NCBI GenBank assembly: GCA_026390775.1
Contig: JAPLFF010000007.1
Span: forward strand, 434,001-498,000
Length of the DNA: 64,000 nt
DNA from: Ignavibacteriales bacterium
GTDB lineage: Bacteria; Bacteroidota; Ignavibacteria; Ignavibacteriales; Melioribacteraceae
Direction of reading: 5' to 3'
The position numbers were made by a program, and so were the translations under genes. Shown here in pieces: positions 8,336-43,157 of the stretch. Below the pieces are notes generated by a model, which saw only the letters and a program-made list of their open reading frames with translations, did not search any database and was not told where the DNA came from. Numbering within the stretch: the first letter of the stretch is position 1; each line of letters begins with the position of its first letter.

Positions 8336-9397
8336 CTATAATCCAAATGAAATACCTGCACTAGCTGTTTTTGTTTTAGCTAATTTATAATCAGCATTAA
8401 TGTTAACTGCAGCAAGATGAAGAGTAAATCCTACAACAGCAGAGCTTGTATTTTCACCTTCAATTTCAAAGGCAATATTAATTGGTGGAACAGTAGCTCC
8501 GCTCACAACTTGATTGGATTGGTAATTATATGAAACAGTTGTTTTAGAGGTTTCCATTGTTAATCCGGCATAAGGAGTAAAAGAAATAATCGCTCCAAAG
8601 GTTTTACTAACATAAACTCCAAACTGAGATGTTGTACTTTCAAACATACTTCCGACTTTCATTTTTTGAATAAAGTATCCTATACCAAAATCGACCGGTA
8701 TTGGATTTGGGAACCAAACTCCAGGGTTGTGAATTAATCCAGCACCCCAAAAACTAAATTTGCCCATATCTTTAATATCCACATCAGGGAAATAACGGAA
8801 CGCAAAATTAGTCCCGAAAACTGTTCCAACAGTAACTTGAGCCGCTGCTGTAGGTAAAACCGGAAGTTCATCTAAAAATCCGCTAACACCAGACATACTA
8901 AATGTTGTCGCAGGTAAATTGTATCCTTGAAAAGATTGTCCGGGAAAAATAATGTTCAGATTTTGATTCTTTTTCCCTACAATAGTAGGACCGGAAAATG
9001 TTACGCTCATTGGTGTATTTTGAAGTTGAGATCTTAGTAGAACATAAGTCGGCGATCCTTGTGCCAGACCAGTCGTATTATTCAGAATTGCAGAAGCTTG
9101 ATCCTGAGAAAAATAGAACTGACCGGTTTCAACAAAGTTTTTTACATCATCCGAAAAAAATGACCCCATTGCAATAATTTTTACATCAAGATGAAATTCC
9201 AATTTACTTGCGGATGGTGCATTTGTAACCCAGCCTGAATTTAGATTTGAGCCAAATGCTGAAATTACCGGTTTTACATATTGCGCCCCAACAGTAGATG
9301 ACAATTTGGAAAGAGTTTCTTGCAAACTTTGTGCTTTCAGATTAACTGAAAAAAATAAACCACTCACAATAAATAAAGAAAGTATTCTCTTAATCAT
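8336..9397 (-). CDS. Outer-membrane-like protein, DUF6588-type
   Basis: The chosen ATG at 9397 has a GGAGGT Shine-Dalgarno sequence four bases upstream and gives a signal peptide (M-I-K-R-I-L-S-L-F... ending L-K-A-Q). The frame is open to 9457, but that extension would put 20 unrelated residues before the signal peptide. The 353-residue product is rich in Gly, Ser, Phe and alternating beta-type sequence and ends A-G-I-S-F-G-L. It resembles the DUF6588 proteins of Bacteroidota, which look like outer-membrane beta-barrels of unknown role. It is monocistronic between recN and hemW, with its own terminator. The family name is given with moderate confidence and the function is unknown. Confidence 0.8.
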   Translation of the reverse strand: MIKRILSLFIVSGLFFSVNLKAQSLQETLSKLSSTVGAQYVKPVISAFGSNLNSGWVTNAPSASKLEFHLDVKIIAMGSFFSDDVKNFVETGQFYFSQDQASAILNNTTGLAQGSPTYVLLRSQLQNTPMSVTFSGPTIVGKKNQNLNIIFPGQSFQGYNLPATTFSMSGVSGFLDELPVLPTAAAQVTVGTVFGTNFAFRYFPDVDIKDMGKFSFWGAGLIHNPGVWFPNPIPVDFGIGYFIQKMKVGSMFESTTSQFGVYVSKTFGAIISFTPYAGLTMETSKTTVSYNYQSNQVVSGATVPPINIAFEIEGENTSSAVVGFTLHLAAVNINADYKLAKTKTASAGISFGL

Positions 9398-9503
9398 ACA
9401 ACCTCCGCTATTATTGATTTCCTTTGCTCTGAATTTAATGAACAAAATTTTCATCACAAAGGAAATATTGTTGGAAAAACAGAATTGTGCTAAAAAACAA
9501 TTT

Positions 9504-11216
9504 TTAGTTTTTAGATAATCCCATTAGCTCACGCGCACCATTTAGAGTTGCTTCGGTTACTTTCTCACCGCTCATTAGTTTTGCAACTTCTTTAATGCGC
9601 TCTTCACCCTTTAGAATTCGTATCGAACTTACTACGCGATCTCCGGCTTTTTTCTTTTCGACTGCATAATGGAAATCCGAAAGTCCAGCAATTTGAGGCA
9701 AATGAGTTATGGCAATAATTTGGTGATATGATGCAAGCGATTTCAAAACTTGTCCTACTTTCTGAGCAATACGTCCGCTTACACCTGTATCAATTTCGTC
9801 AAAAATGAGAATAGGAAGTTTATCCGATTTTGCAAGTATGGATTTTAGCCCAAGCATTATGCGCGAGACTTCACCGCCCGATGCAACTTTAACTAGCGGT
9901 TTGGGATCTTCGCCGGTATTTGTTGAAATGAAAAATTCTATGTTATCAAAACCATGCTCGTTGAATTTATAATTCTTTCCATCTGCTATAATAAAATTCT
10001 CCGCTGCATTCGAGACGATTTCATTTTCTAATTTTACTTTGAAAACAGAATCGGCAATTCCTAGATACTTCAATGCATCTTCAATTTCTTTTTTAATTTT
10101 ATTTGAAACTATTTTTCTTTCTTGCGAAAGTTTTTTTGCCAGCAAGCCGCATTCTTTTCTTGAATTATCTATTTTCTTTTCGAGCTGAGTTATCTTTAAG
10201 GAAAAGTTCTCTGCTAGTTCAAACTCAGCACCAATCTTCTCCCGATGATCAAGTACGGATTTAAGCGAACCGCCATATTTTTTCTTCAGTAGAATTAGTG
10301 CGCCGAGACGTTCTCTTATCTCTTCCAAACGATTTGGGTCAATATCAATTCTGTCTTTGTAACTCCGCATGAAAGACGAGATATCAACTAGAGAAGCCAA
10401 GATTGAATCAACTTCGTTCAAATTTTCATTAAATGATTTATCAATTTTCGTGAGTTCTAAAATTTTATTTTTAACATCTGCAATTTGTTCTTGAATGGAA
10501 TGTTCATTTTCATAAATCGCATTATAAATATCATTTGTCAACGAAAGAAGTTTTTCTGAATTTTCTAAAATTTTTAATTCGTCAGAAAGTTTTTCTTCCT
10601 CTCCTTCTTGAGGCGAAACCGCATCTATTTCTTTAATCTGAAATTCATATAATTCTTTTTTCTCTTTCAGTATATTTTCTTTTTGAATTAATTCCCGTAG
10701 CTCTTTCGACAAAGCAGAAAGCTGCCGTGACGCCGATCTAAATTCATTCAATTGTGTTTCGAGATTTGCAAATTCATCCAGCATTTCGATATGTGTTTCC
10801 GCTCGTAATAAAGATTGATGTTCATGCTGTCCGTGAAGATCTACCAAGAGGTCGCCCGTTTCTTTAATTAGATTAAGAGGAACAGGAGTATCATTCAAAA
10901 AACATCTGTTAGTTCCTTTTAAGGAAATCTCACGCCGAATTATTAATTCTGAATTGAATTCAATTTCATTCGCTGTAAGAAGCTGCTGTACTTTTTTATT
11001 CCCCGTTACATCAAAGAGACCTTCCACAACAGATTTCTCGGAACCTTTTCTTACAACTTCAGTAGATGCACGTTCACCGAGTAATAATCCCATTGCATCA
11101 ATTAAGATAGATTTACCAGCGCCCGTTTCTCCGGTAATTATATTTAGACCTTTACCGAATTCAACTTCGATGTTTTCTATGAGTGCATAATCTTTAATGA
11201 GAAGTGTCTTGAGCAT
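9504..11216 (-). CDS. recN: DNA repair protein RecN
   Basis: RecN is an SMC-like ATPase that acts early in double-strand-break repair and holds DNA ends together. The 570-residue protein has the Walker A motif GETGAGKS (29-36) right after the M-L-K-T-L-L-I-K-D-Y-A-L-I start that is typical of RecN. Coiled-coil arms flank the centre. Near the C terminus are the ABC signature region L-V-K-V-A-S-G-G-E-V-S-R and Walker B I-L-I-F-D-E-I-D-T-G. Length and order match the family. It lies downstream of the initiator tRNA, separated by a strong terminator, so it must have its own promoter in 11217-11303. Confidence 0.97.
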   Translation of the reverse strand: MLKTLLIKDYALIENIEVEFGKGLNIITGETGAGKSILIDAMGLLLGERASTEVVRKGSEKSVVEGLFDVTGNKKVQQLLTANEIEFNSELIIRREISLKGTNRCFLNDTPVPLNLIKETGDLLVDLHGQHEHQSLLRAETHIEMLDEFANLETQLNEFRSASRQLSALSKELRELIQKENILKEKKELYEFQIKEIDAVSPQEGEEEKLSDELKILENSEKLLSLTNDIYNAIYENEHSIQEQIADVKNKILELTKIDKSFNENLNEVDSILASLVDISSFMRSYKDRIDIDPNRLEEIRERLGALILLKKKYGGSLKSVLDHREKIGAEFELAENFSLKITQLEKKIDNSRKECGLLAKKLSQERKIVSNKIKKEIEDALKYLGIADSVFKVKLENEIVSNAAENFIIADGKNYKFNEHGFDNIEFFISTNTGEDPKPLVKVASGGEVSRIMLGLKSILAKSDKLPILIFDEIDTGVSGRIAQKVGQVLKSLASYHQIIAITHLPQIAGLSDFHYAVEKKKAGDRVVSSIRILKGEERIKEVAKLMSGEKVTEATLNGARELMGLSKN

Positions 11217-36342: not shown

Positions 36343-37905
36343 ATGAAAAGTAAAAAGTTACTGTTAGTGATCTTCTCTTTAATCTTCTCAATTCAAATTT
36401 TCTCTCAAGAAAAAATTGATTACCAAATGATGCAGCGTATTCGTCAAGAGGGACTTCAAAATTCCAAGGTGATGGAATTAATGAGTTATCTCTGTGATAT
36501 ATATGGACCTCGGCTTGCAGCATCACCACAATTCCGCCAAGCAGGTCAATGGGTTGTTGGTAAATTAAAAGAATACGGTCTTGAAAATGCAAATATGGAA
36601 TCATGGGGAACTCTTGGCAGAGGTTGGGAATTAAAAAAGTTTTATGCTGCTATGACTTCACCGCAATACATGCCGTTTATTGCTTATCCTAAAGCATGGA
36701 CTCCGGGTTTGGAAGGAGTTGTAAAAGGAAATGCTGTGCTAATGGATATTAAATCTGAAGCAGATTTAGATGCATTCAAAGGAAAATTAAAAGGCGCGAT
36801 TGTTCTTTCACGCGGAGAACAACCGATAACTCTTGGAATGGATGCTGATGGAAAACGTTATAATGACGAAGATTTAAAAAAATTACAACTTGCTCAAGAA
36901 GGCGGCGGGAGAAATTTTGATCCGGCTCAAAGAGCAACGCTTCAGGCGCAAAGAGAACTGCAACAAAAAGTTGCAAAGTTTTTAAAAGATGAAGGCGCTT
37001 TAGTTGTACTTGAACCATCCCGAGGAACCGACGGAACAATTTTCGTTCAGAGCGGAGGATCTTACAAAAAAGGTTCTGAAATGCCATTACCTTCAATTGT
37101 TGTTTCTGTAGAACAGTATAATAGGATGGTTCGCATCGCACAAAAAAATGTTCCGGTAACTTTAGAATTTGAAATTCAAGCTAACTTTGTTGACACAGAT
37201 TCTCTCGGTTATAATGTTATTGCAGAAATTCCCGGCACAGATAAAAAATTAAAAGATGAAGTAGTAATGCTTGGCGGACATTTTGATTCGTGGCATTCAG
37301 GAACCGGTGGAACTGATAACTCTTCCGGAAGTGTAATTGCTATGGAAGCTGTGCGTATTCTTAAAGCACTTAATGTTAAGCCAAGAAGAACTATAAGAAT
37401 TGCTTTATGGGATGCAGAAGAAGAAGGTTTGATCGGATCCCGTAATTATGTTAAGAATCATTTTTTTGATGCAGAGAAAAAAGAAAAGAAACCGGATTAC
37501 GATAAATTAGCTGCTTATTTTAATTATGATAACGGTTCAGGAAAAATTCGCGGTATTTACACACAAGGTAATTTTGCAGTTATGCCGATCTTTGAAGAGT
37601 GGTTAAAACCATTCAATGATCTTGGCGCTTCTACCGTTACATTAAGAAATACAGGAGGAACGGATCACCAATCGTTTGATAGTGCAGGTCTTCCCGGTTT
37701 CCAATTCATACAAGATCAATTAGAATATGATACGAGAACGCATCACTCCAATATGGATGTTTACGATCATACAAGCAGAGCTGATTTAGTTCAATCGGCA
37801 ACTATTATGGCAGCATTTGTTTATAATGCGGCAATGCGCGACGAAAAATTACCAAGAAAATATTTCGATCCGAATACAGTACAGCAACGCAGACCACAGT
37901 TTTAA
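36343..37905 (+). CDS. Secreted M28-family zinc peptidase
   Basis: The 520-residue protein has a signal peptide (about 1-21, ending I-F-S-Q). A peptidase-associated PA-like insert (about 120-270) precedes the M28 catalytic domain. Candidate zinc ligands are His313 (G-G-H-F-D-S-W) and Asp325 (G-G-T-D-N-S-S-G). Also conserved are Glu359/Glu360 (W-D-A-E-E-E-G-L-I-G-S), Asp396 (F-N-Y-D-N-G-S-G) and a late His (442 or 467/468, T-H-H-S-N-M-D). The pattern is that of bacterial glutamate-carboxypeptidase/aminopeptidase-like enzymes of the periplasm. Substrate specificity is not readable. GGAGTT lies just before the ATG. It is followed by a short tandem repeat and the kinase-RapZ fusion. Confidence 0.92.
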   Translation: MKSKKLLLVIFSLIFSIQIFSQEKIDYQMMQRIRQEGLQNSKVMELMSYLCDIYGPRLAASPQFRQAGQWVVGKLKEYGLENANMESWGTLGRGWELKKFYAAMTSPQYMPFIAYPKAWTPGLEGVVKGNAVLMDIKSEADLDAFKGKLKGAIVLSRGEQPITLGMDADGKRYNDEDLKKLQLAQEGGGRNFDPAQRATLQAQRELQQKVAKFLKDEGALVVLEPSRGTDGTIFVQSGGSYKKGSEMPLPSIVVSVEQYNRMVRIAQKNVPVTLEFEIQANFVDTDSLGYNVIAEIPGTDKKLKDEVVMLGGHFDSWHSGTGGTDNSSGSVIAMEAVRILKALNVKPRRTIRIALWDAEEEGLIGSRNYVKNHFFDAEKKEKKPDYDKLAAYFNYDNGSGKIRGIYTQGNFAVMPIFEEWLKPFNDLGASTVTLRNTGGTDHQSFDSAGLPGFQFIQDQLEYDTRTHHSNMDVYDHTSRADLVQSATIMAAFVYNAAMRDEKLPRKYFDPNTVQQRRPQF

Positions 37906-37942
37906 TGAAAGCAACTGAGTGCCTGAGTAACTAAGATGTAAT

Positions 37943-37985
37943 CTCAGGAACTAAGGCACTCAGGAACTAAGACACTCAGGAACTT
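37943..37985 (+). repeat. Short tandem repeat (16-bp unit, nearly three copies)
   Basis: Units begin at 37943, 37959 and 37975, each starting CTCAGGAACT; the first two are identical except one base. A partly inverted copy (ACTGAGTGCCTGAGTAACTAAG) lies just upstream at 37915-37936. The last unit supplies AGGA about 11 bases before the ATG at 37993, so the repeat may provide that gene's ribosome binding site. Confidence 0.8.
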
Positions 37986-37992
37986 AAAATAG

Positions 37993-39423
37993 ATGCAATC
38001 AATAAATCATTTAGAAAAACTTTTTAAGAAATGGAGCGGAGAAAAAAAAATTAGTATCTCTCCCCTTCCGGAATCCGGTTCATCACGAAAATATTTTAGA
38101 ATTACAAGTAACAATAAATCTGCAATAGGTGTTTATAATACCGATAAACGCGAAAATCGTGCTTTCATTTATCTCACCAAACAATTTCTAAGTTTGAAGC
38201 TCAATGTTCCAAAAATTTACTCTCATGATTTAGAGAACAATATTTATTTAATAGAAGATCTCGGCGATGTAACTTTATTTTCTTTCACCGAGCTAAACCG
38301 AAACGGGAATTTATTTAATGGAGACGTTATTGAACTGTACAAAAATATTTTAGAACTACTTCCCCGATTTCAAATAACCGCATCAAAAAAATTAAACTTC
38401 AATAACTGTTATCCGCGCAGTAAATTTGATTCTCAATCAATTATGTGGGACTTGAATTATTTCAAACACTATTTTCTTAAACTTGCGAAGATAGAATTTG
38501 ATGAACAGAAACTTGAAAATGATTTTAACATCCTTACAAATTTTCTTTTAAGTGCTGATTGCAATTATTTCTTATACCGCGATTTTAACTCGCGTAACAT
38601 AATGATCAAGAATGGTGAACCATATTTTATAGATTACCAGGGTGGGCGCAAAGGCGCACTTCAATATGATATTGCTTCACTACTCTTTGATTCGAAAGCA
38701 AGCTTACCTCAAAATCTTAGAGAGGAATTTTTAGATCATTACATCGCATCAGCAAATAAAATTAAGCGGATTAATAAAAAAGAATTCTTGAAATATTACA
38801 ATGGATATGTTTTAATTCGTTTACTTCAAATGTTCGGGGCTTACGGTTACCGCGGTTATTTTGAAGGCAAAGCTCATTTCTTAGAAAGTATTCCCTACGC
38901 TGTAAAGAATCTAGAATGGCTTTTATTGAAATCAAAAATTAAAAGCACGGTTAAATTACCGGAATTGTATAATACATTAGAACAAATAATAAAATCTAAA
39001 GAACTTCAAAAGTTTAATTGGAAAGATTCACCTGCAGGGAAACTTACTGTTCGCATCAATAGTTTTTCTTATCGTGATAAAATACCAATGGATATTTCAG
39101 GCAACGGCGGCGGATTTGTTTTTGATTGCAGAGCAATTCCAAATCCCGGACGATATGAAAAATATAAATCCTTAAACGGTACCGATAAACCTGTTCAAGA
39201 TTTTTTAGCAATTCAACCTGAGGTTCAATTATTTTTGAATGAAACTTTCGATCTCATAGATAAAACCGTTGAGAATTATATTGGACGCGGATGGTCCGAT
39301 CTTATGGTAAATTACGGATGCACCGGAGGACAACACAGATCTGTTTATTGTGCGATTAAATTATCCGATCATTTGAAAAAGAAATTTGATGTCAATGTTA
39401 TTTTAAACCATACAAAATTTTAA
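37993..39423 (+). CDS. Sugar kinase-like / RapZ C-terminal domain fusion
   Basis: The 476-residue protein joins two domains. The N-terminal part (about 20-310) is an aminoglycoside-phosphotransferase-fold kinase with Y-R-D-F-N-S-R-N-I-M (Asp197) and F-I-D-Y-Q-G-G (Asp214). It is like AmgK, the MurNAc/GlcNAc anomeric kinase. The C-terminal part (about 351-476) is a RapZ C-terminal domain with F-V-F-D-C-R, G-R-G-W-S-D-L-M-V-N-Y-G and the signature G-C-T-G-G-Q-H-R-S-V. In E. coli RapZ this domain senses glucosamine-6-phosphate; the P-loop half of RapZ is absent here. The MurU-like gene starts two bases after the stop. The context supports amino-sugar (peptidoglycan) recycling; substrate and any sensing role are inferred. 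Confidence 0.88.
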   Translation: MQSINHLEKLFKKWSGEKKISISPLPESGSSRKYFRITSNNKSAIGVYNTDKRENRAFIYLTKQFLSLKLNVPKIYSHDLENNIYLIEDLGDVTLFSFTELNRNGNLFNGDVIELYKNILELLPRFQITASKKLNFNNCYPRSKFDSQSIMWDLNYFKHYFLKLAKIEFDEQKLENDFNILTNFLLSADCNYFLYRDFNSRNIMIKNGEPYFIDYQGGRKGALQYDIASLLFDSKASLPQNLREEFLDHYIASANKIKRINKKEFLKYYNGYVLIRLLQMFGAYGYRGYFEGKAHFLESIPYAVKNLEWLLLKSKIKSTVKLPELYNTLEQIIKSKELQKFNWKDSPAGKLTVRINSFSYRDKIPMDISGNGGGFVFDCRAIPNPGRYEKYKSLNGTDKPVQDFLAIQPEVQLFLNETFDLIDKTVENYIGRGWSDLMVNYGCTGGQHRSVYCAIKLSDHLKKKFDVNVILNHTKF

Positions 39424-39425
39424 GC

Positions 39426-40151
39426 ATGCGCGCATTTCTTTTATCAGCCGGGTTAGGTACAAGACTAAAACCTTTAACCGATACAACACCCAAAGCATTA
39501 GTTCAAATTAACGGGGTTACTCTTCTTGAGCATATAATTAAACGATTAATTTCATTCGGATTTGATTCCATTATTATCAATGTTCATCATTTTGGGGATC
39601 AAGTAATTAATTTTTTAAAAGAAAAAAACAATTTCGGCGTTGATATTAAAATTTCAGATGAGCGGGATCAATTGTTAGATACCGGCGGCGGATTAAAAAA
39701 AGTTTCTGAATTTTTCAATGATGATAAGCCTTTTCTTGTTCATAATGTTGATATACTCTCAGATCTAAATTTATTCGAGCTTTATCATTATCATCTAAGA
39801 TCAAATTCTATTGCAACTCTTGCAGTACAAAACAGAAAATCATCCAGATATTTTTTGTTTGATGAAGATAAAAATCTCTGCGGATGGAAAAATGAAAAAC
39901 CACTTGAGACAAAAATTGCCCGTCAACAAATCGGCTCATTAATACAACTTGCGTTCAGTGGTATCCAAATTATCGATCCTAAAATTTTTCAATTTATGCC
40001 TGAGAAAAATATTTTTTCTCTTATTGATCTATATTTGTCCATCGCTTCTAAAGAACGAATCTCTTATTTTGATCACAGCGGATCATTATTTATTGATCTT
40101 GGGAAAACAGAGAATTTGATGGAAGCAGAAAAAATCATTAAAGTAATTTAA
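39426..40151 (+). CDS. MurU-like sugar-1-phosphate nucleotidyltransferase
   Basis: The 241-residue protein starts with the nucleotidyltransferase P-loop-like motif L-S-A-G-L-G-T-R-L-K-P-L-T-D-T-T-P-K-A-L and continues with V-H-N-V-D-I-L-S-D (metal-binding Asp) and D-T-G-G-G-L-K-K. It ends F-I-D-L-G-K-T-E-N-L. This is the size and pattern of MurU, which makes UDP-MurNAc from MurNAc-1-phosphate after AmgK, and of related mannose-1-phosphate guanylyltransferases. The two-base gap to the kinase-RapZ gene makes the AmgK-MurU reading attractive. The substrate is inferred from context. Confidence 0.85.
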   Translation: MRAFLLSAGLGTRLKPLTDTTPKALVQINGVTLLEHIIKRLISFGFDSIIINVHHFGDQVINFLKEKNNFGVDIKISDERDQLLDTGGGLKKVSEFFNDDKPFLVHNVDILSDLNLFELYHYHLRSNSIATLAVQNRKSSRYFLFDEDKNLCGWKNEKPLETKIARQQIGSLIQLAFSGIQIIDPKIFQFMPEKNIFSLIDLYLSIASKERISYFDHSGSLFIDLGKTENLMEAEKIIKVI

Positions 40152-40163
40152 AAGGAAATTAAA

Positions 40164-42038
40164 ATGAAAAAAATATTCACTTTTATTCTTTCAATTATAT
40201 TGTTTTATTCTTTTACATCCTCATTTGCACAAGGCATTGATTGGATCAAAGAACATTACATAAAAAAAGATTACCGCATTGAAATGCGCGACGGAATAAA
40301 ATTGTTTACTTCTGTCTATTCTCCTAAAGACACTACAAAAAATAATCCTATCCTCATGTTACGAACTCCATATACTGTTGCGCCATATGGTGAAGATAAA
40401 TACCCGCAGAACTTGGGACCAAATGAAACATTTGCAAGAGATGAATTCATTTTTGTTTTTCAAGATGTACGCGGTATGTTTTTGAGCGAAGGCAAATTCG
40501 ACAACATGCGGGCATACATACCAAACAAAAAAAGCAATAAAGATATTGACGAAACTACGGATACATACGATACTATAGACTGGCTTGTTAAGAATTTAAA
40601 ACACAACAACGGTAACGTTGGCATTTGGGGAATTTCTTATCCCGGATTTTATGCTGCAATGTCACTTATTGATTCTCATCCCGCACTAAAAGCGGCATCG
40701 CCTCAAGCGCCGATTGCAGATTGGTTTATTGGCGACGATATGCATCATGGCGGTGCTTTAACACTTTCAATGTCGTTTAATTTTTTCAAAGGATTTGATC
40801 AGCAGCGCGATTCTTTAACAACAACTTGGAAGCCAGCACCTAAATATGATTCACCTGATATGTACAATTTCTTTTTACAACTTGGACCACTGTCAAATGC
40901 CAATGAAAAATATTTAAAAGGTAAACTTCCATTTTGGAATGAAATGTTAAAGCATGGTAATTACGATGAATTCTGGAAATCGCGTAGCAATCTTCCCTAT
41001 TTCAAAAATGTAAAACCGGCTGTACTGATTGTTGGCGGTTGGTACGATTCCGAAGATTTATACGGACCACTTCATATTTACAAATCCATCGAAGAGAAAA
41101 ATTCAAAAAACCAAACCCATATTGTAATGGGTCCGTGGTATCACGGCGGTTGGTCTCGTAGCGATGGAAGTTCATTCGGCGATTTTAAGTTTGGAGAAAA
41201 TACAAGTGAGTACTACAACAAAAATATTCTTCTTCCCTTTTTCAATTATTATTTGAAAGGAACCGGCGTATTAAATTTACCCGAAGCGATTATATTCAGA
41301 ACAGGTTCTAACACTTGGGTTAATTATGATAAATGGCCGCCAATTAATGTAGAAAAAAAATCTATCTATCTCTCGCCAAACAATAAACTGAATTGGAATA
41401 AGCCGACTGAAAAGAAAAATTTATTCGGTGAATATTTAAGCGATCCAAGTAAACCGGTTCCTTATTCTTGGAAATTTCATGACTCCGGATTGCATTACTA
41501 TAGAACTTACATGAGTGATGATCAACGTTTTGCATCTGCCCGCCCCGATGTTCTTGTTTATGAAACCGAACTGCTTGAAAAAGACATAACTGTTGCCGGA
41601 CCAATACTAGCAGATCTATTTGTCGCCACCACCGGAACTGATGCCGATTGGGTTGTGAAAGTGATTGATGTATATCCTGATGGTGCTATTAATCCGGATC
41701 CAAATCCTAATAATATTGAAATGGGCGGTTATCAACGATTGATACGTTTCGAAGTATTGAGAGGTAAGTTTAGAAATAGTTTTGAAAAACCGGAACCTTT
41801 TGTCCCTAATAAAGTAACTGAAGTGAAGATTAATTTGAATGATGTTGACCATACATTTTTGAAAGGACATAAAATAATGGTTCAAATTCAGAGCAGTTTT
41901 TTCCCGTTCATTGACCGTAATCCGCAAAAATTTGTTGATATTTATAACGCCAAGGAAAGTGATTTCCAGAAAGCATTTAACCGGGTATATTTTTCAAAAC
42001 AGTATCCGTCTAACATCTCGCTTGGTGTTATGAAATAA
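40164..42038 (+). CDS. CocE/NonD-family serine hydrolase (X-Pro peptidase-like)
   Basis: The 624-residue protein has a signal peptide (about 1-22, ending S-F-A-Q). A peptidase S15-type alpha/beta-hydrolase domain follows, with the nucleophile elbow G-I-S-Y-P-G (Ser158), the acid in G-G-W-Y-D-S-E-D and the His in G-P-W-Y-H-G-G-W. The C-terminal jelly-roll X-Pro-dipeptidyl-peptidase domain (about 430-620) is present. Relatives hydrolyse acyl esters, N-terminal acylated amino acids or X-Pro peptides. The mature enzyme is likely periplasmic. AAAGGAAA precedes the ATG, which lies 12 bases after the MurU-like gene, so it may belong to the same transcript. Confidence 0.92.
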   Translation: MKKIFTFILSIILFYSFTSSFAQGIDWIKEHYIKKDYRIEMRDGIKLFTSVYSPKDTTKNNPILMLRTPYTVAPYGEDKYPQNLGPNETFARDEFIFVFQDVRGMFLSEGKFDNMRAYIPNKKSNKDIDETTDTYDTIDWLVKNLKHNNGNVGIWGISYPGFYAAMSLIDSHPALKAASPQAPIADWFIGDDMHHGGALTLSMSFNFFKGFDQQRDSLTTTWKPAPKYDSPDMYNFFLQLGPLSNANEKYLKGKLPFWNEMLKHGNYDEFWKSRSNLPYFKNVKPAVLIVGGWYDSEDLYGPLHIYKSIEEKNSKNQTHIVMGPWYHGGWSRSDGSSFGDFKFGENTSEYYNKNILLPFFNYYLKGTGVLNLPEAIIFRTGSNTWVNYDKWPPINVEKKSIYLSPNNKLNWNKPTEKKNLFGEYLSDPSKPVPYSWKFHDSGLHYYRTYMSDDQRFASARPDVLVYETELLEKDITVAGPILADLFVATTGTDADWVVKVIDVYPDGAINPDPNPNNIEMGGYQRLIRFEVLRGKFRNSFEKPEPFVPNKVTEVKINLNDVDHTFLKGHKIMVQIQSSFFPFIDRNPQKFVDIYNAKESDFQKAFNRVYFSKQYPSNISLGVMK

Positions 42039-42659: not shown

Positions 42660-43157
42660 ATGGTTTTCGATCGTCTCAAAAATGCTAACCAATATTTTCC
42701 ACTTGGTGAAAGAATTACTAAAGCTCTTCAATATTTATCACAAACAGATTTTACAAATCTTGAGCCTGGCAAATATGAAATTGACGGCGAAAATATTTTT
42801 GCTCTGGTTCAGACATATAACACAAAACCGTTTAGCTCTGGCAAATGGGAAGCACACAAAAAATATATAGATGTTCAATACATTGTTTCCGGTAAAGAAA
42901 AAATAGGATTTACAGAAACAACTAAAGTTATTGTTATGGAAGAATACAATGAAGAAAATGACTATGCTATATATAAAGGTGAAGGAAATTTTCTAATTGC
43001 CGATGAAGGACATTTTGCAATATTCTTTCCTTCAGATGTACATATGCCCGGTATGGCAATTAATATTCCGAAAGAAGTTAGAAAGGTTGTTGTGAAAGTG
43101 AAACTTGAAGGTAAAGAAGAAACTATTAATCAAGAACCTGCAAACGAACCTACTTAA
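42660..43157 (+). CDS. YhcH/YjgK/YiaL family protein
   Basis: The 165-residue cupin-like protein matches the YhcH (DUF386) family. It has W-E-A-H-K-K-Y-I-D-V-Q-Y-I-V-S-G, F-A-I-F-F-P-S-D-V-H-M-P-G with a candidate metal-binding His, and V-R-K-V-V-V-K-V near the C terminus. E. coli YhcH (NanQ) acts as a sialic-acid anomerase in sugar catabolism, and other members lie with sugar-acid genes. A sugar mutarotase or anomerase role is plausible. The residues after about 150 are a Glu/Asn-rich tail. It is convergent with the FKBP gene. Confidence 0.9.
   Translation: MVFDRLKNANQYFPLGERITKALQYLSQTDFTNLEPGKYEIDGENIFALVQTYNTKPFSSGKWEAHKKYIDVQYIVSGKEKIGFTETTKVIVMEEYNEENDYAIYKGEGNFLIADEGHFAIFFPSDVHMPGMAINIPKEVRKVVVKVKLEGKEETINQEPANEPT

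Follow-up and report, generated by a model that had tools for sequence, protein, structure and literature searches.

A RapZ C-terminal domain on an AmgK-like kinase in Bacteroidota: a candidate MurNAc-6P phosphatase in MurNAc salvage

The fusion gene and its MurU-like neighbor

The DNA analyzed here, the window, is a stretch of 64,000 nucleotides from an Ignavibacteriales bacterium (Bacteroidota, Melioribacteraceae; GCA_026390775.1, contig JAPLFF010000007.1, positions 434,001-498,000, forward strand). Its plus strand contains an open reading frame for a 476-residue protein (37993..39423), in which a kinase domain (PF01636) is joined to a RapZ C-terminal domain (PF22740). The full-length AlphaFold2 model has a mean pLDDT of 93.4 and a pTM of 0.76. 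Two bases beyond the stop codon, on the same strand, begins a gene for a MurU-like nucleotidyltransferase of 241 residues (39426..40151; PF00483). A promoter scan of 37850-40300 revealed no plus-strand promoter.

The kinase half, residues 1-320 (37993..38952, plus strand), matches the Pfam APH family PF01636 over residues 22-251 at 34.3 bits (cut-off 23.2). The NCBIfam AmgK model NF045759 covers residues 1-308 at 71.2 bits, under its equivalog cut-off of 550, and a second AmgK model, NF045698, scores 48.3 bits against a cut-off of 500. The top-scoring NCBIfam model for the protein is RapZ (NF003828), though also under its cut-off; after this model, which covers the other domain, AmgK is the best named one. 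The closest solved structure is 3csv (Foldseek E 9.6e-13), and other APH folds match as well. R196-D197-x4-N202 (38578..38598), which by the APH family we take to be the catalytic loop, and D214-x-Q216 (38632..38640), in which D214 is presumably the metal-binding Asp, retain R196, D197, N202, D214 and Q216 unchanged in all 58 aligned fusions and in all 17 kinase rows, four of them unfused. The kinase half is an APH fold with the catalytic Asp and Asn and the metal Asp intact.

The MurU-like protein scores 126.8 bits against the MurU model NF045761, under the cut-off of 250, yet this is its best-scoring named model; the cut-off is exceeded in none of 395 genomes of the phylum. Its closest solved relatives are 4y7t and 8hhd, the latter named MurU (E 2e-19), and it is also matched by mannose-1-P guanylyltransferases and one phosphocholine cytidylyltransferase. 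An earlier, sequence-only reading had recognized an AmgK-like kinase that ends in a RapZ C-terminal domain, without the P-loop half of RapZ, and two bases further on a MurU-like gene. Both statements are borne out by the domain matches (PF01636, PF22740, NF003828 positions 150-273), the two reading frames and the rank of NF045761.

The RapZ C-terminal domain and its anion-binding loop

Residues 352-474 (39046..39414, plus strand) match PF22740 at 110.8 bits (cut-off 27, E 6e-32). The P-loop half of RapZ is absent, since NF003828 aligns only at model positions 150-273 of 278. The fusion is the single PF22740 match in the 3.01-Mb genome from which the window derives, and no full-length RapZ was found there. 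Modeled alone with AlphaFold2 (pLDDT 92.3, pTM 0.87), the domain resembles the C-terminal domain of E. coli RapZ (5o5s) at Z 20.4. Its loop C443-T-G-G-Q-H-R449-S450 (39319..39342, plus strand) is a C-x5-R-S anion-binding loop that lies strand-loop-helix in the model, and the E. coli counterpart holds a sulfate or malonate oxyanion (PMC5737377).

Conservation was assessed in two samples. The phylum sample comprises the 395 genomes, of which 49, the window genome among them, carry PF22740; a further 80 named loci were selected by likeness to the kinase-RapZ_C fusion. Together they give 129 rows and 127 distinct RapZ C-terminal domains, two named loci repeating genomes of the phylum sample. The loop cysteine (C443) is unchanged in all 127 distinct domains and the loop arginine (R449) in 126, with His in the remaining one; the invariant residues take in the whole anion-binding loop. 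The pocket of E. coli RapZ consists of H190, T248, G249, H252 and R253 (PMC5737377, PMC9841335). The window domain keeps the last four and has Gly in place of H190. At K251, an RNA-contact position of E. coli RapZ, it has Gln, as do four of nine canonical RapZ proteins. The position of R238, likewise an RNA contact, is aromatic (F, W or Y) in 127/127 module domains and K or R in 9/9 canonical RapZ. The fusion protein stops three residues past H473, and the basic C-terminal tail of the E. coli type, judged by the residues that we take to form it, is missing. A role as an RNA adapter of the E. coli type was rejected, as neither R238 nor the basic tail is conserved.

In the sense of the sequence-only reading, which raised control of the kinase by amino-sugar level, the domain could be a ligand-sensing regulator: on binding a phosphorylated amino sugar such as GlcN6P or MurNAc-6P it would tune the kinase, so that salvage follows precursor supply. 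The C-terminal domain of E. coli RapZ binds GlcN6P, with a KD of 186 nM by SPR for RapZ, and then frees its RNA partner (PMC7073468). T248, G249 and H252 are kept in all 127 distinct module domains and R253 in 126, and the domain is steadily linked to one kinase. However, H190, whose replacement by Ala abolishes activity in E. coli (PMC9841335), is Gly in 126 of the 127, although the position also varies (N, Y or F) in four of the nine canonical proteins. In addition, the E. coli ligand site is itself inferred, and a pure sensor leaves the invariance of the cysteine unexplained. Sensing is a real possibility, if a doubtful one.

Outside RapZ, the folds closest to the domain model in a structure search are phosphofructokinases. 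The protein tyrosine phosphatase 3s4o appears at rank 19 among tied rows (Z 6.2, rmsd 2.8 over 90 residues), which is within noise. Pfam phosphatase and PTP families gave no match to 59 domains at E<=10, in a search whose filters discard most weak matches. A profile of the domain run against PDB sequences matched RapZ and one unrelated methyltransferase (E 0.38), and nothing else.

Fused, split and separate forms

Fused loci account for 37 of the 49 phylum carriers, the window included, and for 79 of the 80 named loci, a share that is not a frequency, since similarity to the fusion was how these loci were chosen. The recurrence of the fusion argues against a frameshift, an assembly artifact or chance as its origin, and the split forms keep the same gene order. 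Eight carriers encode the kinase, the domain and MurU separately, in three genes side by side. In three genomes the domain is a stand-alone gene that has no kinase and no MurU closer than about 6 kb, which counts against a ligand sensor that tunes the kinase.

The sequence-only reading had proposed a survey of how often MurU adjoins the fusion. MurU lies within 700 bases downstream of the domain locus in 39/49 phylum loci (30 fused, 8 split as kinase-domain-MurU and 1 as domain-MurU) and in 52/80 named loci, with a median gap among these of 4 and 3 bases, respectively. That reading was silent on the split, unfused arrangement and on catalysis. An additional conserved gene, such as a phosphatase, was sought beside the module and rejected: besides MurU, no neighbor family occurs in more than nine of the 129 loci (ORFs of at least 130 residues).

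In a survey of 390 genomes, a strong kinase (at least 250 bits) is present in 46/46 PF22740 carriers, and the domain accompanies all but one of the 47 strong kinases. Related kinases that lack it occur in 79 genomes of one family and in one further genome (G009); those of the 79-genome family adjoin MurU in the five compared. The fusion is not a mere substitute for canonical RapZ, as 8 of 12 genomes tested via named loci hold a second, canonical-type domain.

Fusion and tight operons with MurU are what would be expected of a structural or oligomerization module that joins two kinases or hands MurNAc-1P on to MurU, without ligand chemistry, and the C-terminal domain of E. coli RapZ makes a swapped dimer (PMC7199280). 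Such a module is nevertheless improbable: it does not account for a whole anion-binding loop among the invariant residues, and the related kinases of the 79-genome family and G009 exist without the domain.

Relation to MurQ and AnmK

The etherase MurQ (TIGR00274, E<=1e-40) is present in 0/10 carriers and 15/16 non-carriers of the window's family (Fisher 2e-6), and the window's own genus contains both states. In the window's order, the domain is present in 12/13 genomes lacking MurQ and in 4/27 with MurQ (Fisher 4e-6). Across the phylum, it is present in 15/16 genomes with AnmK but not MurQ and in 16/255 with both (Fisher 3e-15; all of these tests ignore the relatedness of genomes). The 15 carriers are spread over six families, with eight in one; one genome (G377) has AnmK and lacks both MurQ and the domain. 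The tie of the domain to the absence of MurQ in the window's order, and to genomes with AnmK but not MurQ phylum-wide, is new here. It is in this genomic setting that Pseudomonas requires the MurNAc-6P phosphatase MupP, which was discovered by such logic (PMC5371407). A pure sensor leaves the domain's marking of these genomes unexplained.

MurQ is retained in 20/49 carriers and in 7/8 named-locus carrier genomes tested. AnmK is not enriched in carriers phylum-wide (31/49 versus 240/346 non-carriers), and was rejected as a general partner of the module, the association appearing only where MurQ is absent. A rule that kinase and AnmK together always entail the domain (30/30 versus 16/96) was likewise rejected, as it is lost without family f26 (p 0.36). 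AnmK is missing from 18 carriers, the window genome included, and in one carrier counted as having it (G216) rests on a weak match (E 1e-10); where it is missing, MurNAc-6P would need another source. A genome-wide search of the window genome did not find AnmK, MurQ or GH3 NagZ. A BadF/NagK-like kinase adjoins an AmpG-like transporter in this genome, both under model cut-offs, and this pair is a candidate alternative source of MurNAc-6P.

The kinase-transferase pair might instead act on another sugar or on a choline-like compound, with the RapZ domain serving that pathway. The AmgK and MurU cut-offs are missed by far, the second protein has the guanylyltransferase and cytidylyltransferase matches described above, and the window genome shows the three absences just given. 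Set against this, no named model scores higher than AmgK on the first protein, the RapZ model of its other domain aside, or than MurU on the second. The module and MurQ exclude each other in the window's family and order, and with AmgK and MurU of Tannerella forsythia, also of the Bacteroidota, E. coli is able to incorporate MurNAc probes (PMC13041923). A substrate other than MurNAc is quite improbable. The peptidoglycan-recycling setting of the sequence-only reading holds, and is strengthened by the MurQ exclusion.

Proposed function of the module

Homology, operon structure and MurQ exclusion indicate that the two genes are very probably this phylum's version of anabolic MurNAc salvage. It is quite possible, though we propose it tentatively, that the module salvages UDP-MurNAc with the RapZ domain as a cysteine-dependent MurNAc-6P phosphatase. 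The sequence, the fused and split forms, the conservation and the genome distribution were observed directly; the substrate, the catalysis and the order of steps we infer. The domain would strip the 6-phosphate off MurNAc-6P just ahead of the kinase step, with C443 as the putative nucleophile; R449 and the amides of the loop would bind the phosphate. The kinase half would then convert MurNAc to MurNAc-1-phosphate, and the MurU-like enzyme would turn this into UDP-MurNAc. The RapZ domain would thereby stand in, in cis, for the MupP of Pseudomonas. MupP is a HAD-type phosphatase, and a profile search of the fusion and the MurU-like protein found no HAD domain in either.

A catalytic MurNAc-6P step would account for the genome distribution no less well than amino-sugar sensing. 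Work on E. coli RapZ bears on the same cysteine: C247A and C247S each abolish activity, a catalytic -SH was suggested, and crystals of the C-terminal domain with GlcN6P show "likely a chemically transformed product" (PMC9841335); the word "phosphatase" does not occur in that paper. The likeness of the RapZ pocket to a PTP loop is not new here, as it is already in print together with the proposal that GlcN6P hydrolysis is possible (PMC7199280). The canonical RapZ domain is not an efficient MurNAc-6P phosphatase, because E. coli murQ mutants, which bear RapZ, build up MurNAc-6P (PMC5371407). Counting against a phosphatase are the 18 carriers of 49 without AnmK, the 20 with MurQ, and kinase and MurU scores far under the equivalog cut-offs.

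More broadly, RapZ C-terminal domains may be cysteine-dependent sugar-phosphate phosphatases, the AmgK-fused or adjacent domain being an unrecognized MurNAc-6P phosphatase of Bacteroidota and several other phyla, and E. coli RapZ a relative that keeps the active-site loop; we offer this generalization with some reserve. A search of the open-licence PMC literature did not find RapZ together with AmgK, or "MurNAc 6-phosphate phosphatase" together with Bacteroid-; RapZ and peptidoglycan recycling appear together in PMC4908143. A catalytic domain would mean that a large bacterial group completes MurNAc salvage with an enzyme class other than that of MupP, and would give the question of the cysteine pocket in E. 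coli RapZ (PMC7199280, PMC9841335) a relative whose pathway is defined. With a sensor domain, the module would instead be a small salvage unit under its own regulation. In both cases, the name RapZ (RNase adapter) would mislead for the fusion protein.

Comparison with known systems

As in the cysteine-dependent phosphatases of the PTP and DSP type, C-x5-R-S lies between a strand and a helix in the window domain. Unlike them, the domain has an overall fold nearest to a phosphofructokinase subdomain, and it has no sequence match to them. With E. coli RapZ it shares PF22740 over its full length, the fold and the GCTGG-x-HRS loop. It differs in the sugar kinase that takes the place of the P-loop N-terminal half, in Gly at H190, an aromatic residue at R238 and the lack of a basic C-terminal tail, and in an insertion, five residues in alignments, before the F-D-x-R strand.

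Salvage of MurNAc by AmgK and MurU also occurs in Tannerella forsythia, where AmgK-MurU stands beside MurK-MurQ (PMC7670621, PMC13041923), whereas the window genome lacks MurQ. The MupP-AmgK-MurU pathway of Pseudomonas and Caulobacter likewise sets an APH-type kinase beside a MurU-type transferase, in place of MurQ (PMC5371407, PMC13046382). The module described here differs from that pathway in its scores under the AmgK and MurU cut-offs and in the retention of MurQ by some carriers, and where the pathway has a MupP gene, it has instead a RapZ C-terminal domain, fused to the kinase or encoded in the same operon.

Results

The window encodes a kinase-RapZ_C fusion (476 aa, + strand, 37993-39423) and, two bases downstream, a MurU-like nucleotidyltransferase (241 aa, + strand, 39426-40151). 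The N-terminal part of the fusion is an APH-type kinase (PF01636), and residues 352-474 form a complete RapZ C-terminal domain (PF22740, 110.8 bits, cut-off 27), the single PF22740 match in the entire window genome. The open reading frames and model matches confirm the arrangement claimed in the sequence-only reading, including its missing P-loop half of RapZ: the RapZ model matches the fusion in its C-terminal half alone. The AmgK model NF045759 spans residues 1-308 at 71 bits, far under the equivalog cut-off of 550, and the best named model for the downstream protein is MurU (126.8 bits, below the cut-off of 250); the names AmgK and MurU therefore denote best model matches, not passed memberships. 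Immediately before the fusion start codon, at 37941-37984, lie three CTCAGGAACTAAG-like units 16 bases apart, two of them exact 12-base matches and the third with two mismatches; the window holds 5 matches versus 2.5 expected, and at least 5 occurred in 9 of 100 shuffles. The second gene past a CocE-type hydrolase, at 42660-43157, encodes a member of the YhcH/YjgK/YiaL family that scores 124.6 bits with the N-acetylneuraminate anomerase model, under the cut-off of 160; this family is present at 7 of 129 module loci, the window counted.

PF22740 occurs in 49 genomes of the 395-genome phylum sample, in single copy apiece. The 48 non-window loci were taken with their flanks, and all 49 were scored against the window kinase, RapZ and MurU proteins. 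A fusion with MurU at most 700 bases downstream was found at 30 loci, a fusion without nearby MurU at 7, kinase, RapZ domain and MurU encoded in that order by separate genes at 8, a RapZ domain followed by MurU at one, and a RapZ domain by itself at 3; for the last four loci the kinase is encoded elsewhere in the genome. The sequence-only reading states that such fusions occur in other Bacteroidota-like genomes and proposes a survey of their proximity to MurU; fusions do recur, and those beside MurU predominate, 30 versus 7. The 80 loci from named genomes are those most like the window fusion among 591, and hence biased to fusions. They comprise 79 fusions, of which 51 have MurU, 25 are without it and 3 lie at a contig end, and one split module with MurU, under record titles of Bacteroidota, Calditrichia, Elusimicrobia, Acidobacteria and a few others. 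Together the 49 and 80 loci give 129 rows and, with two repeats, 127 distinct RapZ domains. Clustering of open reading frames of at least 130 aa across the 129 loci recovered the module itself in 126 and MurU in 86, and no additional conserved neighbour family in more than 9. Because the same three parts occur both fused and split, these arrangements point to one common function.

Split modules also occur where relatives are fused. At two loci (L150 3896-5807, titled a Calditrichaceae MAG, and L050 4982-7110) kinase, RapZ domain and MurU are three abutting genes, which suggests repeated fission or fusion. Standalone RapZ_C genes (L041 4673-6393, L037 and L038) have neither kinase nor MurU within about 6 kb; that at L041 adjoins a reading frame resembling, by eye, a membrane transporter. 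AnmK lies on the same contig as a standalone RapZ_C in two genomes, about 10 kb off in G306 and 16 kb in G271.

In E. coli, AnmK produces MurNAc-6P and MurQ breaks it down, while Pseudomonas is without MurQ and uses MupP, AmgK and MurU instead. PMC5371407 describes MurQ and AmgK-MurU as mutually exclusive in beta- and gammaproteobacteria, and MupP as discovered through a search for genes that co-occur with amgK and are missing where murQ is present. The same logic was applied to the 395 genomes, with AnmK called at E <= 0.001 and MurQ at E <= 1e-40. Phylum-wide, MurQ is found in 20/49 carriers versus 258/346 non-carriers. Within the window's family the figures are 0/10 and 15/16 (Fisher 2e-6, uncorrected for relatedness), and the window's genus holds both states: two carriers are without MurQ, and three non-carriers have it. 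Of the 40 sampled genomes of the window's order, 13 are without MurQ and 12 of them are carriers, versus 4 carriers among the 27 with MurQ (Fisher 4e-6, uncorrected for relatedness); the thirteenth, G009, combines the kinase with a MurU match and is without the RapZ domain. Genomes with AnmK and without MurQ are carriers in 15 of 16 cases (six families, 8 genomes in one), versus 16 of 255 with both (Fisher 3e-15, uncorrected for relatedness). The exception, G377, rechecked at E 0.001, gave short partial matches alone (27-29 bits). AnmK is no commoner in carriers phylum-wide (31/49, G216 being counted on a weak match alone, versus 240/346). Among eight carrier genomes reached via named loci, seven keep MurQ (titled Acidobacteria, three; Elusimicrobia, three; Calditrichia, one) and a Melioribacter is without it. 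From these counts, exclusion in the window's family and order and 20 carriers keeping MurQ, it follows that the module replaces MurQ in some lineages and supplements it in others.

A profile from 17 kinase domains matched 126 of 390 genomes (E <= 1e-30). PF22740 is present in 46 of the 47 scoring at least 250 bits, which include all 46 carriers among the 390; the sole other is G009, a member of the window's family. The remaining 79 all belong to one family, f26, at 109-149 bits, and none has PF22740, AnmK or MurQ (e.g. G362:C162:1319-2976). Their AmgK-like kinase is more distant, and a MurU match lies at most 100 bases away in all five f26 genomes compared (G048, G169, G330, G354 and G362).

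Neither AnmK, MurQ nor a GH3 (NagZ-type) enzyme was found in the window genome; MurA was. Its one full-length BadF-type kinase (L217 8095-9015) is nearest N-acetylglucosamine kinase (140.6 bits, cut-off 370), and is followed by an adjoining AmpG-like transporter (9062-10849; 112.7 bits, cut-off 350). The pair is a possible source of sugar-6-phosphate.

Discussion

The peptidoglycan-recycling setting proposed for the module is well supported by operon structure and MurQ exclusion. Less certain is the role of RapZ_C. Across the 127 distinct domains, C247, T248, G249, G250, H252 and S254 (E. coli numbering) are invariant, R253 is retained in 126, and position 190 is Gly in 126. One fusion (L133 35-1480, titled a Saprospiraceae MAG) reads GCTGGQHHS, its loop arginine replaced by His, probably a sequencing error or an inactive variant. 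Eight canonical-type RapZ domains and that of E. coli share this loop, and their residue at position 190 is H, N, Y or F. The likening of this pocket to a PTP loop is presumably due to Khan and Goerke. PMC7199280 compares it with the phosphatase loop in PTPs, which are cysteine-dependent, and suggests GlcN6P hydrolysis, so the C-x5-R-S likeness is already published. In E. coli, H190, H252 and R253 form the pocket together with the T248 and G249 backbone, and malonate or sulfate is bound there (PMC5737377). PMC9841335 reports that C247A and C247S each abolish activity, proposes a possible catalytic role for the C247 -SH, and describes density in crystals with GlcN6P as "likely a chemically transformed product". 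In an AlphaFold2 model of RapZ_C (pLDDT 92.3), the cysteine ends a strand and the arginine begins the helix that follows. In fold comparison RapZ ranks first at Z 20, ahead of phosphofructokinases at Z 6.9 and other folds, with which one PTP (3s4o, Z 6.2) is tied; this comparison speaks neither for nor against PTP kinship.

We tentatively favour, at somewhat under even chances, a catalytic RapZ_C with MurNAc-6P as substrate; the domain would act as a phosphatase in cis to the kinase. Catalysis would account for the invariant cysteine, the presence of the module in genomes with AnmK and without MurQ, and the lack of a MupP gene in the module. Its main obstacles are the carriers without AnmK (18/49, the window genome among them) and the build-up of MurNAc-6P in E. 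coli murQ mutants despite the presence of RapZ (PMC5371407). The sensor of amino-sugar phosphate proposed in the sequence-only reading accounts for the E. coli RapZ precedent, and we consider it less probable, at about one chance in three. The fusion does not simply rebuild RapZ, because canonical-type RapZ coexists with it in 8 of 12 genomes checked. Record titles place these eight (L190-L197 with L202-L209) in Acidobacteria and Elusimicrobia, except for one unplaced bacterium; their canonical-type copies are open frames of 293-473 aa, four with Y, N or F at the H190 position.

The sequence-only reading placed novelty in function, not architecture. The kinase-RapZ_C fusion is indeed common and its component families known, and MurQ exclusion is in print for proteobacteria; yet no description of the kinase-RapZ_C-MurU module or its split form was found in the open-licence PMC literature, nor a report of module-MurQ exclusion in the window's phylum or a proposal assigning RapZ_C to the MurNAc-6P step. 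Compared with E. coli RapZ, the module domains have Gly at position 190 and an insertion, differences that could alter the substrate of a catalytic RapZ_C.
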